Source of the DNA: an uncultured Ectothiorhodospiraceae bacterium
GTDB taxonomy: Bacteria > Pseudomonadota > Gammaproteobacteria > UBA6429 > Thiohalophilaceae
DNA: 32,269 nucleotides
Assembly: GCA_947260005.1 (NCBI GenBank)
Contig: CAMYOL010000057.1
Coordinates: 1-32,269, forward strand
Direction of reading: 5' to 3'
Below, one piece after another: positions 23,077 to 26,891 of this stretch. Numbering within the stretch: position 1 is the stretch's first letter; each line of letters opens with the position of its first letter. The position numbers and the translations under genes were made by a program. The notes below the pieces were generated by a model, which made no database searches, had not been told where the DNA came from, and was given only the letters and a program-made list of their open reading frames with translations.

Positions 23077-23943
23077 ATGGACAGGACGTTGATAAAAAAA
23101 TCGTACATGCTGATCTCATTTCTGTTATTGCTAAATGGTTGCGGCGTGTCACTCCCAATTTCTTCGGGGGTAAACGAATCCTCAATCAGCGGACACATAG
23201 ACGGCTATAAATCTAATCCCGATGAAAAAATCGTCGCCGTTACTTCGTCTACCGTATGGAAATTTATCGGTTTAGCACCCCATCCACCTGCAGATAAGAT
23301 CGACCATGATTATTCCACAACGACTAATTATTTTTTAGAAAAGCAAGGCGAAAGGATTGATCTGTATTTTTTACATCAATTCAACACCTATTTTGTATTT
23401 AATACTGATAATCAGTGGTTTAGTTTTGATTTAGATGACGACAATAAGTATTTTATTATTTACCAGTTTGACTTCGACGAAAATTATGTAAAACATAAAA
23501 TCCCCCTTCCTGTTAAAGGTGGGCTTGATGAAATGTATTTTGACAAGTTTGCAAAGTTCATTGTTTGGCGGGAAGTCAATATGGGCTATCAAGAATATAA
23601 TATTAACAAGCAGGAAATAACACGGCGTTATTTTTCACCGTCTAAATCCGAACTTGACGAACTTTTTCTGGTTTCAAAAAACAGATCTAACATTGCTGAA
23701 CTGGATTTTTTCAAAGCCGTTGAGTCAGATACCTCTCCTGAGCGAACAATCGACCCGTTAACAATCGTGAAATCGGATTCACTTGAACTATTGGATAAAG
23801 CCAGCCGATCGAAGCATTATTTAGTTCGCTGGGCGGTGGTGCTTAACCCCAATACCAGTAAAGATATGTTGAAGACACTCAGTCGTGATAATTCCTATTA
23901 TGTCGCTAGCGCCGCTTATAAACGCCTGAAACTCCAGTTTTAA
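23077..23943 (+). CDS. Lipoprotein with C-terminal VR-type helical repeat
   Basis: 288 residues; a signal peptide ending in the lipobox L-N-G-C (Cys22) predicts a membrane-anchored lipoprotein. The middle is rich in aromatic residues and Asp (for example WFSFDLDDDNKYFIIYQFDFD), suggesting a beta fold. The last ~50 residues, LLDKASRSKHYLVRWAVVLNP followed by DMLKTLSRDNSYYVASAAYKRL, form a leucine-rich-variant/HEAT-like unit ('D....VR.a.a.Np.t....L..L..D....V..aa..rL'). No enzymatic motif is visible. It is the last gene of the accessory segment and lies just before the second hairpin-repeat block. The function is unknown. Confidence 0.6.
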   Translation: MDRTLIKKSYMLISFLLLLNGCGVSLPISSGVNESSISGHIDGYKSNPDEKIVAVTSSTVWKFIGLAPHPPADKIDHDYSTTTNYFLEKQGERIDLYFLHQFNTYFVFNTDNQWFSFDLDDDNKYFIIYQFDFDENYVKHKIPLPVKGGLDEMYFDKFAKFIVWREVNMGYQEYNINKQEITRRYFSPSKSELDELFLVSKNRSNIAELDFFKAVESDTSPERTIDPLTIVKSDSLELLDKASRSKHYLVRWAVVLNPNTSKDMLKTLSRDNSYYVASAAYKRLKLQF

Positions 23944-23994
23944 TACCTTCTTTGAAGATAAAATTTGGAAGTTAAAACGAAGTCTTCCACTTTT

Positions 23995-24147
23995 CTCGTC
24001 ATTCTCCCTGGAGAGGGAGAATCCAAATATAATCAGGCCTTTTCACTTCCCCGTCATTCCTCTTTTTAAGACTTCCTGTTCCTGTCATACCCGCAGGGCA
24101 CATTTCCCTCTGGAGAGAGGGAATCCATCTACCTAAGTTACTCGTCA
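23995..24147. repeat. Array of dRS3-like hairpin repeats, block 2 (homologous to block 1)
   Basis: The block begins with CTCGTC and the hairpin ATTCTCCCT-GGAG-AGGGAGAAT (24001-24022). It continues with an AATCAGGCCTTTTCACTTCC spacer, a CTTTTTAAGACTTCC spacer and a second hairpin TTCCCTCT-GGAG-AGAGGGAA (about 24104-24123), closing with ACTCGTCAT. The same order of hairpins and spacer words occurs at 20197-20328 (ACAGGCTTTTTCACTTTCC, TTTTTTAAGACTTCC). The two blocks are diverged copies in the same orientation. Block 2 has an extra CTGTCATACCCGCAGGGCA piece. Confidence 0.75.
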
Positions 24148-24239
24148 TTACGCCAAACTTCAGCTCTACCAGATTTATCGTTGTTAGTGGGTTTAACTAA
24201 GATTTCAGCTGCCAGTTAAAGACGATTAAATCTCTGTCC

Positions 24240-24268
24240 TTGACAGACTAGGATGTTTGTCCTAATCT
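24240..24268 (+). promoter_or_regulatory. Sigma70-type promoter of the tetR-yciI-tag group
   Basis: TTGACA at 24240-24245, a perfect -35, is followed after 17 bases by TAATCT at 24263-24268, a good -10 (four of six positions match TATAAT). Transcription would start near 24275, about 57 bases before the TetR start codon. Operator 1 occupies the spacer and the first two bases of the -10, and operator 2 the region just after the start point. Confidence 0.75.
24249..24264. promoter_or_regulatory. Operator 1, TetR-type palindrome
   Basis: TAGGATGTTTGTCCTA, an inverted repeat (TAGGA...TCCTA) lying between the -35 and -10 of the promoter, where bound protein would block RNA polymerase. It matches operator 2 at the outer positions (TAGGAxG..TGTCCTA), with one arm mismatch. 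Confidence 0.75.
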
Positions 24269-24278
24269 ACGCCAAGAG

Positions 24279-24294
24279 TAGGACGGCTGTCCTA
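24279..24294. promoter_or_regulatory. Operator 2, TetR-type palindrome
   Basis: TAGGACGGCTGTCCTA, a perfect 6+6 inverted repeat (TAGGAC/GTCCTA) with a 4-base centre. Its centre is 30 bases from that of operator 1, about three helical turns, so two dimers could sit on the same face. It falls at about +5 to +20 of the predicted transcript. Confidence 0.78.
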
Positions 24295-24331
24295 ATTTTT
24301 GAAAATGTGACGGGTCAGCGAGGTGTTTTTT

Positions 24332-24907
24332 ATGAAAGATAAGACAACGCGCGATCACATTGTTGAGGCAGCCGATCAATTGTTCTATCAACAAGGCTAC
24401 GAACATACCTCGTTTTCGGATATTGCCCATAGCGTACAAATTTCACGCGGTAATTTTTACTACCATTTCAAATCGAAGGATGAAATTCTCGATGCGGTAA
24501 TCCATGTGCGCTTGGCGAATACCCAAAAGATGTTGGAACGGTGGGAAATTGAAGGGGAGCAACCCGTTGATCGCATTCGCAGCTTTATTCATATCCTGAT
24601 TGCGAACCGGGCCAAAATAAAACGTTACGGATGCCCGGTTGGCACACTAAGCACGGAACTTGCGAAACTAGATCATGGCTCAAAAGATGAGGCAAATGAA
24701 TTATTTACTCTGTTTCGGGTCTGGTTGCGTAGACAATTCAAACTGCTTGGTCGCAAGGCCGATGCTGATAAGTTGGCGATGCATCTTCTTGCTCGCAGTC
24801 AAGGGGTTGCTACACTGGCCAATGCCTTTCACGATGAGAAATTTATTAAACAAGAGGTCAAGCAATTGGATGACTGGCTAAATTCGTGTGTAGAAAACAC
24901 CGTCTAG
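24332..24907 (+). CDS. TetR-family transcriptional regulator
   Basis: The 191-residue product has the usual N-terminal DNA-binding domain: IVEAADQLFYQQGYEHTSFSDIA then the helix-turn-helix VQISRGNFYYHFKSKDEIL (35-53). The ligand domain contains RYGCPVGTLSTELAK with Cys101 at the position where NemR-like and related repressors carry a conserved, in NemR redox-reactive, Cys; that parallel is inference. The ATG at 24332 is chosen since GAGG sits 9 bases upstream; a GTG at 24323 overlaps that site. Two 16-bp palindromes in its promoter point to autorepression, and the yciI and tag genes follow on the same strand at 48 and 37 bases, so they are probably in its regulon. Confidence 0.9.
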   Translation: MKDKTTRDHIVEAADQLFYQQGYEHTSFSDIAHSVQISRGNFYYHFKSKDEILDAVIHVRLANTQKMLERWEIEGEQPVDRIRSFIHILIANRAKIKRYGCPVGTLSTELAKLDHGSKDEANELFTLFRVWLRRQFKLLGRKADADKLAMHLLARSQGVATLANAFHDEKFIKQEVKQLDDWLNSCVENTV

Positions 24908-24955
24908 GCTGGGTAAACGGTCTAACAGATTTAATTTTATAGGAGAGTAAAGTCG

Positions 24956-25243
24956 ATGTTTATCGTACTGCTAAAGTTTTCTGGCAATAAAGGACAGGCA
25001 AGTGAATTTATGGATGGTCACAATGAATGGATAAAGCGCGGTTTTGACGACGGTGTGTTTTTGCTGGTCGGTAGTCTCCAGCCCAGCCTGGGTGGAGGGA
25101 TCTTCGCCCATAATATTTCGAAATCTGAACTTCAAAACAGGGTGAACGCCGATCCGTTTGTGACTCAAAATGTGGTAAGCGCTGAGATTCTAGAAATCTC
25201 GCCAGCAATAGCAGACGAACGATTAAATTTTCTTCTCGGCTGA
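24956..25243 (+). CDS. YciI-family (YCII-related domain) protein
   Basis: The 95-residue product is a single YCII domain, a ferredoxin-like fold seen in small enzymes and in domains fused to other proteins. GHNEWIKRGFDDGVFLLVGSL carries the conserved His24 and the 'G.ll..G' strand, and NADPFV matches the conserved DPyv motif near the end. Family members are suggested to use a His-Asp pair in hydrolase-like or dehydrochlorinase-like chemistry, but most are uncharacterised, so no reaction is assigned. The start has AGGAGAG 7-8 bases upstream, a strong site. It sits between tetR and tag. Confidence 0.82.
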   Translation: MFIVLLKFSGNKGQASEFMDGHNEWIKRGFDDGVFLLVGSLQPSLGGGIFAHNISKSELQNRVNADPFVTQNVVSAEILEISPAIADERLNFLLG

Positions 25244-25280
25244 GTGACAGCTCTAAAATATTTTATATAAGGATAGTTAA

Positions 25281-25895
25281 GTGAGAAAAACGATAAAAGG
25301 TCAAGATGGCAAATTACGCTGTCGTTGGTGCGATGCTGCACCGGAGTTTCCTGACTATCATGATACCGAATGGGGTTTCCCGGTTAGTGATGATCGTCGT
25401 TTGTTCGAGAAGTTGTGTCTGGAGAGTTTTCAATCCGGACTGAGTTGGCGCACCATACTGACTAAACGCGAGAACTTTCGTGCAGCTTTTCATCATTTCG
25501 ATTTTAACAAAATAGCGCGCTTTACCAAGCGCGACATCAATCGTTTGCTAAAGGATGAAGGAATCGTCCGCCATCGCGGCAAGATCGAGGCCGTGATCAA
25601 TAACGCGCAACGCATGCAGGAGCTTATCAAACGAGAAGGCTCGTTAGCGACCTTCATCTGGCGTTACGAACCTGACAAAAAGCAACTTGCAAAACCACAG
25701 ACTGTTTCGACTTCTGCTGAATCCATTGCTTTGTCGAAGGAGTTGAAAAAGCAGGGCTGGAAATTTGTTGGTCCAACAACCGTGTATGCCTTTATGCAGG
25801 CCATGGGGTTGATCAACGATCATGTTGAAGGCTGCGTGATAAGACTTAAGGTTGAGCGGGCTCGCAAAAAGTTTAAGCGACCAAAGTTTAAGTGA
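25281..25895 (+). CDS. tag: DNA-3-methyladenine glycosylase I (Tag)
   Basis: The 204-residue product excises 3-methyladenine from alkylated DNA, starting base-excision repair. The diagnostic zinc site is intact: Cys14 in LRCRWC, His27 in YHDTEWG, and His181/Cys185 in NDHVEGC. The catalytic Glu48 lies in LCLESFQSGLSW, RHRGKIEAVINNA follows, and KFVGPTTVYAFMQAMGLINDH (read in parts) closes the helix-hairpin-helix fold. It has a basic 15-residue tail after the zinc site. The start is GTG with AAGGATAG upstream. Genomic position behind a TetR regulator and a YciI protein suggests regulated, perhaps electrophile- or alkylation-responsive, expression; that is inference. Confidence 0.93.
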   Translation: MRKTIKGQDGKLRCRWCDAAPEFPDYHDTEWGFPVSDDRRLFEKLCLESFQSGLSWRTILTKRENFRAAFHHFDFNKIARFTKRDINRLLKDEGIVRHRGKIEAVINNAQRMQELIKREGSLATFIWRYEPDKKQLAKPQTVSTSAESIALSKELKKQGWKFVGPTTVYAFMQAMGLINDHVEGCVIRLKVERARKKFKRPKFK

Positions 25896-25928
25896 TCAGG
25901 CGATGAGCAGATAACGGTTCGATTTCAG

Positions 25929-25949
25929 TATCGAGAACAAGTCTCGATA
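25929..25949. other. Perfect 8-bp inverted repeat between tag and ispE
   Basis: TATCGAGA (25929-25936), loop ACAAG, TCTCGATA (25942-25949). It lies 33 bases after tag and within 7-67 bases of the possible ispE starts. No T-run follows on the plus strand, so a classic terminator is unlikely; it could be an operator or a stem in the ispE leader. Confidence 0.45.
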
Positions 25950-26015
25950 GATTAATTGGGTCTGTTGGTGTGTCTGGCTATCGGCCATTCTCAAGATCCG
26001 ATATCATTCAGCATA

Positions 26016-26891
26016 GTGACTAGCCCAAAACCAACATCGCTCTCGGCCGAAACTAAATGGCCGGCACCCGCCAAGCTGAATCTGTTTCTGCACATCACCG
26101 GTCAGCGTGAGGATGGTTTTCATCTTTTGCAGACCGTGTTTGTGTTGCTCGATTTTGCAGACCAGCTTAGCTTTACTGTCACAGATAACCCAGGGGTTGA
26201 ACTCGATTATCAGCTCCATGGTGTAAAAAAAGAGCAGGATATCATCTACCGGGCCGCCACAGCCTTACAGCAACAGGCTGGCATCCAAAAAGGCGTCAAG
26301 ATTCAGTTGGACAAGCACTTACCCATGGGCGGGGGGCTCGGTGGTGGCAGCTCCGATGCGGCAACGACCCTGTTGGCCCTCAATCAATTATGGGGTTGTG
26401 AACTGGATTTGGCTGAGTTGGCTGAAATTGGGCTGAATCTGGGGGCCGATGTGCCGGTGTTCATTTATGGCCAAAATGCCTGGGCCGAAGGGGTCGGGGA
26501 GCAGTTAATCCCGGTCGAAGTGCCAAATGCATGGTATCTGGTGCTGATCCCTGAAATAAATGTGTCTACAGCGCAAATATTTAGCGACCCGCAATTGATA
26601 CGTGATTGCCCACCCATTACAATACGCGACTTTCTGGAAGGGCAGGGACAGAATGTGTGTGAGCCGATTGTGGCCGCCCAGTCGCCTGAAGTGGCCGAGG
26701 CCCTGCAGGATTTGGGCGCAGTCAGCTCAAAGTCTAGAATGACCGGTACCGGTGCTTGTGTATTTGCGGTATTTGAGAGCGAACAACAGGCACGACAGGC
26801 ATGGTCTAAATTGTCTGCTAAATGGAAAGGATTTATTGCACAGGGCCTGGAAGTATCGCCGGTGCATGAAATGCTAAATAGAACGCAATAA
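26016..26891 (+). CDS. ispE: 4-(cytidine 5'-diphospho)-2-C-methyl-D-erythritol kinase IspE
   Basis: The product phosphorylates CDP-methylerythritol in the MEP route to isoprenoid precursors. It is a GHMP kinase: WPAPAKLNLFLHI near the N-terminus holds the substrate-binding Lys-Leu-Asn motif, the ATP loop is GGGLGGGSSDAATTLL (105-120 from this start), LGADVPVFIYG follows and TGTGACVFAVF is the C-terminal GHMP motif. No start is clearly marked: the GTG at 26016 gives 291 residues, close to the family norm, while a TTG at 25956 would give 311 residues with an unlike extension; neither has a strong ribosome site. In related bacteria it follows lolB directly; here it begins the resumed housekeeping cluster. 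Confidence 0.93.
   Translation: MTSPKPTSLSAETKWPAPAKLNLFLHITGQREDGFHLLQTVFVLLDFADQLSFTVTDNPGVELDYQLHGVKKEQDIIYRAATALQQQAGIQKGVKIQLDKHLPMGGGLGGGSSDAATTLLALNQLWGCELDLAELAEIGLNLGADVPVFIYGQNAWAEGVGEQLIPVEVPNAWYLVLIPEINVSTAQIFSDPQLIRDCPPITIRDFLEGQGQNVCEPIVAAQSPEVAEALQDLGAVSSKSRMTGTGACVFAVFESEQQARQAWSKLSAKWKGFIAQGLEVSPVHEMLNRTQ

Follow-up and report, generated by a model that had tools for sequence, protein, structure and literature searches.

Why should a gene for a DNA-repair glycosylase share its promoter with a gene for a small YciI-like enzyme and a TetR-family regulator, and what kind of signal could release that regulator? This question is raised by a locus in the genome of an uncultured Ectothiorhodospiraceae bacterium. 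The window, that is, the whole stretch of DNA that was analysed, is 32,269 nucleotides long. The features of the locus are as follows.

24240..24245, plus strand: -35 element TTGACA, read in the sequence.
24249..24264, no strand: putative operator box 1, TAGGATGTTTGTCCTA, in the promoter spacer; kept in relatives.
24263..24268, plus strand: -10 element TAATCT, with three of the six consensus bases of TATAAT.
24279..24294, no strand: putative operator box 2, TAGGACGGCTGTCCTA, over the expected transcript start.
24332..24907, plus strand: tetR, 191 aa from ATG; a GTG upstream at 24323 would give 194 aa.
24956..25243, plus strand: yciI-like gene, 95 aa, with His22 and Asp66 invariant in 49 aligned rows.
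25281..25895, plus strand: tag, DNA-3-methyladenine glycosylase I, 204 aa, GTG start, with a Pfam match.

The three genes share a strand, with 48 bases between the first two and 37 between the last two; the next gene on this strand is a GHMP kinase gene, read as ispE. The regulator matches TetR_N (PF00440) at E 2.4e-16 (59.7 bits, cut-off 24) and TetR_C_13_2 at 27.2 bits (cut-off 27). Its best sequence match in the PDB is 3dpj (E 6.4e-70). The Tag protein matches Adenine_glyco (PF03352) at E 1.5e-72, far above the cut-off, and is below the cut-off of NCBIfam TIGR00624 (223.9 bits versus 232.5). The YciI-like protein is below the Pfam YCII cut-off (E 0.033, 15.1 bits versus 24). The genes probably form a small, self-repressed operon in which a single repressor governs a DNA-repair enzyme together with an enzyme likely to act in detoxification. 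The intergenic region upstream of the operon (23985-24160) contains recurring CGTCATT and GGAGAGGGA-like pieces that resemble dispersed genomic repeats.

An earlier note on this DNA called the promoter near-ideal. The -35 element is indeed perfect and the spacer between TTGACA and TAATCT is 17 bases long, but with a -10 element of only three consensus bases this wording is overstated. The same note described a palindrome in the spacer and a perfect copy 30 bp further on, and we found both in place. Box 1 is TAGGAT-N4-GTCCTA, with one mismatch to a perfect palindrome; box 2 is TAGGAC-N4-GTCCTA, with none, and their starts are 30 bp apart. The final TA of box 1 is the opening TA of the -10 element. 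Reckoned from the position of this element, about the first 20 transcribed bases would fall under box 2. Our promoter scan requires four of six consensus bases. Therefore, it does not list the window promoter, and its failure to find any plus-strand promoter-like site in 23900-26100 comes from a scan that also misses the main promoter. At up to three mismatches, the window contains 4 matches to the palindrome motif against 7.5 expected, so there is no enrichment. In the whole genome, the motif occurs at 28 places at up to two mismatches, versus 195 for the motif read backwards. At up to one mismatch, only three places remain in the whole 3.71 Mb, and two of them are the pair of box 1 and box 2. 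The third (C37:15876) sits between genes read by eye as iscS and iscU; it has one mismatch and is not symmetric, and we rejected it as a further regulon site and take it as chance.

The pattern TAGGA-N6-TCCTA, N13-17, TAGGA-N6-TCCTA was scanned over a collection of 84,980 species, which gave 62 stretches. A homologue of the window TetR or of Old Yellow Enzyme (OYE) is present in 35 of the 62 loci. Three loci (L056, L075, L095) are cut at the edge; TetR is present in their genomes, and the boxes stand before tetR. It turned out that both boxes have the form TAGGAY-N4-RTCCTA in 41 of the 62 stretches, and 38 of these 41 belong to this tetR. We rejected the exceptions (L074, L099 and L101) as boxes of this tetR and take them as other sites; TetR has no match in the genomes of L099 and L101, and only weak ones in that of L074. 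None of the 21 loci with boxes of the other type has a TetR or OYE match. At the level of sequence, the twin boxes predict the regulator (38/41 for the Y/R type versus 0/21 for the other type). Bases 9 to 5 before box 1 are T, T, G, A and C in 30, 29, 28, 28 and 27 of the 35 loci with a TetR or OYE homologue, and the last base of the -10 element is T in 33 of them. The layout is kept from proteobacteria to Streptomyces. The carriers with named records are Hydrogenophaga, Trinickia, Duganella, Undibacterium, Rhodanobacter, Billgrantia, Hahella, Balneatrix, Thalassomonas, Thalassobaculum, a Bdellovibrionales MAG, Streptomyces, Actinoplanes, Glycomyces and Phytoactinopolyspora. The genome search for tetR-yciI-tag neighbours and the palindrome, which the earlier note had proposed as a check, thus found the layout to be widespread. 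Apparently, some loci are repeats (L045 of L118, L054 of L120), and L006-L014, L025 and L027 recur in L033-L043 and, in part, in L044, L056, L062, L067, L088 and L103. A 571-aa open frame in Glycomyces that looked like an OYE-TetR fusion was rejected, since it is two genes in different frames. Twin TAGGA-TCCTA palindromes of the other type, without this tetR, were seen in L048, L058, L076, L077, L082-L084, L089, L093 and L105; L084 has four matches in a row. These twins are perhaps repeat elements or sites of other regulators.

For a box-independent sample, we searched for the window TetR in 397 Pseudomonadota genomes at a cut-off of E 1e-40, which leaves out more distant regulators; all counts on this sample apply within it. 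The regulator was found in 22 of the 397 genomes, the window genome included. At up to two mismatches, the other 21 loci carry two boxes in 18 cases, one box in two (L127, L135) and none in one (L138), with 38 box matches in total versus 3 for the reversed control pattern. In this sample, the sequences indicate that the regulator predicts the boxes (two in 18/21, one in 2/21). The start-to-start spacing ranges from 23 to 31. Therefore, the 30 bp of the window is not universal, and we rejected it as a fixed feature. TTGA begins 8-10 nt before box 1 in all 20 box-bearing loci (9 or 10 in 17 loci, 8 in three), at a background of 0.0044 per position. The last T of the -10 element is kept in 8 of these 20. 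As judged from these promoters, the constant feature across loci is the position of box 1 inside the promoter spacer. This YciI is present in 19 of the 21 loci and OYE stands upstream of tetR in two. Tag lies within the 1.5-kb flank in 15, and in a sixteenth (G277) it lies 1.2 kb further on. In the phylum of the Glycomyces genome (G063), TetR was found in two of 296 genomes, G063 itself and one other; the latter has two boxes and YciI, and no Tag match in the locus. The layout, its conservation and the linkage of the genes are direct observations. It is very probable that TetR acts at the twin boxes. The earlier note had predicted an autorepressed, self-contained unit, and the conserved promoter, boxes and gene order strongly support this prediction.

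Two further loci were observed. On pSymB of Sinorhizobium meliloti (L191, 3362-4294), tetR, split over two frames in this record, is followed by yciI; one perfect box and TTGACA stand before tetR, and there is no tag beside the pair. L029 encodes a 38%-identical TetR, and upstream of it are TAGTAC-N4-GTACTA and TAGGCC-N4-GTACTA, 28 apart and 82 and 54 bases before tetR. They perhaps have the same 6-4-6 form with changed middle bases.

In a number of relatives (e.g., L033, L039, L045, L049, L060, L072, L109, L123), an OYE gene lies between the boxes and tetR, and the protein matches Oxidored_FMN at E 2e-74. A conjugative plasmid of Agrobacterium tumefaciens is annotated in the order alkene reductase, TetR, hypothetical protein, DNA-3-methyladenine glycosylase I, and two boxes with one mismatch each stand before the alkene reductase. 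In L055 (102-215), just 38 OYE residues match. In L080 (5409-6015) and L034 (3262-4346), OYE is split over frames or pieces. No OYE was found in L038, where both boxes stand some 110 bases before tetR. The shortened, split or missing OYE in these close relatives suggests repeated loss. The window operon has no OYE either; one OYE-like gene lies elsewhere in the window genome, and we rejected it as a distant regulon member, as no box within two mismatches was found there (L139).

We aligned the window regulator with 70 of the 78 TetR matches, leaving out L118 and L120 as repeats and L023, L024, L026, L030, L031 and L032 as distant, and built a quick tree of the 71 sequences without bootstraps. 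The OYE labels on the tree were set by hand, with the L055 remnant counted as OYE. A clade of 57 rows (support 99) holds all rows with YciI or Tag, and OYE-only rows lie near its base. The opposite clade of 14 rows has OYE in seven; in the flanks examined, none of its rows has YciI or Tag. We interpret this as an OYE-TetR circuit that would have gained YciI and Tag and often lost OYE, in the window too; the order of gain and loss is an interpretation, since the root of the tree was not inferred. Other TetRs, from the same family of bacteria, were observed in the order boxes, OYE, tetR, peroxiredoxin (AhpC/TSA), without yciI or tag (L040, 3810-6283; L041, 2605-5102); some boxes of such loci have one or two mismatches.

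The earlier note pointed to Cys101 of the regulator, in a stretch that it likened to the redox-reactive Cys region of NemR. Its numbering is right if translation starts at the ATG at 24332, where relatives start, and the residue aligns with NemR Cys106. However, it is not diagnostic. The column is Cys in 71 of 71 aligned relatives and also in all 14 distant TetRs aligned, some at 24-29% identity (L023, L024, L026, L030, L031 and L032 were looked at in this comparison). Therefore, Cys101 says little, and we rejected it as proof of electrophile sensing because it is non-specific.

The window YciI was aligned with 48 of 49 YciI matches (L118 was left out). Forty-two of the 49 aligned members reach YCII at E 0.01 or better, the window member not being among them, and His22 and Asp66 are invariant in all rows. 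The structure model (pLDDT 93.9) has one PDB match below E 0.001, namely TftG, a 5-chloro-2-hydroxyhydroquinone dehydrochlorinase (4.3e-4); the next fold matches are HI0828 and ClcF, and identities are 10-13%. The model fits a ferredoxin-like fold of the YCII superfamily with conserved His and Asp. This YciI was found at E 1e-15 or better in 20 of the 397 Pseudomonadota genomes, all among the 22 with TetR, and TetR adjoins it in 20 of 20 loci. It is not fully tied to this TetR, since a Pseudoalteromonas plasmid (L194, 4001-4297) carries it at 56% identity between other genes, and within 4 kb of it there is no good box and no TetR, Tag or OYE.

Cys4, Tyr16, His17, Glu38, Trp46, His175 and Cys179 of E. 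coli Tag, which we take to be its catalytic and metal-binding residues, all have equivalents in the window Tag; they are kept in 41, 40, 41, 40, 41, 41 and 41 of 41 rows, two of which are probably repeats of other rows. The window tag is the only PF03352 match found in its genome. A close Tag was found in 75 of the 397 Pseudomonadota genomes versus 22 with TetR, so by this count Tag is not dedicated to this operon. Tag stands beside TetR in actinobacteria too (L061, L091, L096). A lexA/dinB-type neighbourhood was seen at L037 (reverse strand, the same place as L103), L043 and L025. In one relative (G028), the genes downstream of a twin-box tetR-yciI pair are, in the place of tag, lexA, a gene of the glyoxalase family and one for a Y-family polymerase (Pfam IMS, read as dinB); a palindrome of its own was seen by eye just upstream of this lexA. 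In G010, a shortened tetR, for which no box was found, is followed by yciI, lexA and dinB.

From the layout, we infer binding, repression, the class of inducer and the enzyme activities of the operon. One TetR dimer would bind each of the two 16-bp palindromes. On box 1 it would fill the spacer between -35 and -10 and exclude RNA polymerase; on box 2 it would cover the first transcribed bases and make repression stronger. TetR may be released by a reactive electrophile or by a small molecule linked to such a compound, and tetR, yciI and tag would then be induced together. YciI could remove or rearrange the reactive compound, and Tag could excise the alkylated bases that it makes in DNA. Since OYE (alkene reductase) comes first in the operons of relatives, the operon may work like NemR-NemA with DNA base repair added. 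We give this reading, in which YciI and Tag extend a NemR-like electrophile operon under autorepression, a probability of roughly 0.6. An electrophile response seems to explain best the company of OYE, YciI and Tag, an argument from association that somewhat favours it. Several points speak against it. Cys101 is not diagnostic, NemR Cys21 and Cys116 lack equivalents, and the likeness of TetR to NemR is confined to 81 residues. The window operon has no OYE, which is found in only two of the 21 sampled loci, and Tag is missing beside five or six of them. The -10 element is weak, the box spacing varies from 23 to 31, and YciI occurs without TetR in Pseudoalteromonas. Moreover, the substrates of Tag (3-methyl purines) are products of methylating agents, whereas OYE typically acts on enones and quinones, which we also count against an OYE-type electrophile. 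Tentatively, and with the odds somewhat against it, we propose that an electrophile circuit of OYE and TetR took up a DNA glycosylase and an almost dedicated subfamily of YciI. A single twin-operator repressor would then control both the removal of an electrophile and the excision of the base adducts that this electrophile makes. In this case, Tag may act beyond 3-methyladenine.

The same autorepressed operon would also result if TetR bound one specific metabolite or xenobiotic non-covalently, for example an aromatic or quinone-like one. YciI would then act in its catabolism, as an isomerase or dehalogenase, with OYE in a side role and Tag handling incidental damage. This is consistent with a Cys101 general to the wider TetR group, with fold neighbours of YciI (TftG, ClcF) that act in chloroaromatic catabolism, and with Tag as the part most often absent beside TetR. 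Tag would be needless in a catabolic unit, however, and its place beside TetR in 15 of 21 sampled loci and in actinobacteria makes us consider such a specific ligand rather unlikely. Still less probable is an alkylation response proper, in which methylating agents would methylate Cys101 or another site of TetR and so release it, by a logic like that of Ada and with Tag as the main effector. For a response of this kind, one can cite the sole PF03352 gene of the genome and the Cys101 present in all 71 aligned relatives; but several TetRs have no Tag beside them, whereas YciI is retained in 19 of 21 loci, and the genome has its own Ada-type gene. Moreover, OYE is not known to act on methylating agents.

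It is also conceivable that the boxes are due to chance or serve another regulator, and that tag is transcribed on its own. Loose matches to the motif are not enriched in the window, and 27 of the 62 twin-box loci lack a TetR or OYE match. Of these 27, however, 21 have the other sequence type and three are cut at the edges with TetR just beyond, so that three remain. Given also a layout kept over such distant bacteria and no plus-strand promoter-like site in the region around the genes (in the scan that misses the main promoter too), we regard this as very improbable.

If the operon is in fact induced by electrophiles, base repair would have a further regulated route next to Ada and SOS. The operon would also tie metabolite detoxification directly to excision repair under one repressor, and hint at what an uncharacterised subfamily of YciI does. 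The twin-box operator is a readable mark for finding the operon in any genome, and with so conserved a layout, a single reporter and binding test would be informative for many bacteria. Among the matches listed in open-access literature, we found no description of a tetR-yciI-tag operon, which does not imply its absence from print.

The operon can be compared with several known systems. TftG, which has a catalytic His-Asp pair according to PMC7641849, and other YCII-superfamily proteins match the fold of the YciI model best (TM about 0.7), with conserved His and Asp in common; in contrast, the window YciI is about 12% identical and is below the Pfam YCII cut-off. The Ada response would likewise induce alkylation repair, but through another regulator family. 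A separate Ada-type gene (352 aa, contig C7) that matches both Ada_Zn_binding and DNA_binding_1 is present in the window genome, which supports a circuit distinct from Ada, as the earlier note had proposed. The closest regulator of known structure, 3dpj, presumably from Silicibacter pomeroyi, belongs to the same TetR subfamily (matched over residues 4-187) and has the same YGCPVG motif, although the title of the entry names no function.

The system most like the window operon is nemRA-gloA of E. coli. In both, a TetR-family regulator shares an operon with OYE, in our case in the relatives, where the OYE of L033 shares 42% identity with NemA. The palindrome upstream of nemR (TAGACC-GACT-GGTCTA) has the 6-4-6 form TAGnnC-N4-GnnCTA with TAGnnC half-sites and, by eye, lies in the spacer of the promoter TTGCAC-17-TACACT. 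These two features uphold the likeness to NemR suggested in the earlier note; the argument from Cys does not. NemR Cys21 and Cys116, essential for the electrophile response according to the review PMC5297802, have no equivalents in the window TetR, which has Phe18 and Ala111 there. BLASTP detected 27% identity to NemR over 81 residues of the N-terminal part only, without whole-protein similarity; accordingly, we class the window regulator as one that may work like NemR and not as a NemR. The palindrome search found the box once upstream of nemR, versus two boxes in the window, and the half-site is TAGACC there and TAGGAC here. In the E. coli operon a further detoxification gene, gloA, stands downstream; the window operon has YciI and Tag in its place and, unlike the E. 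coli operon, no OYE. According to PMC3739934 (section 8), gloA goes up in E. coli when nemR is deleted, owing to read-through from nemRA, which is a precedent for a downstream enzyme in a NemR-type operon.
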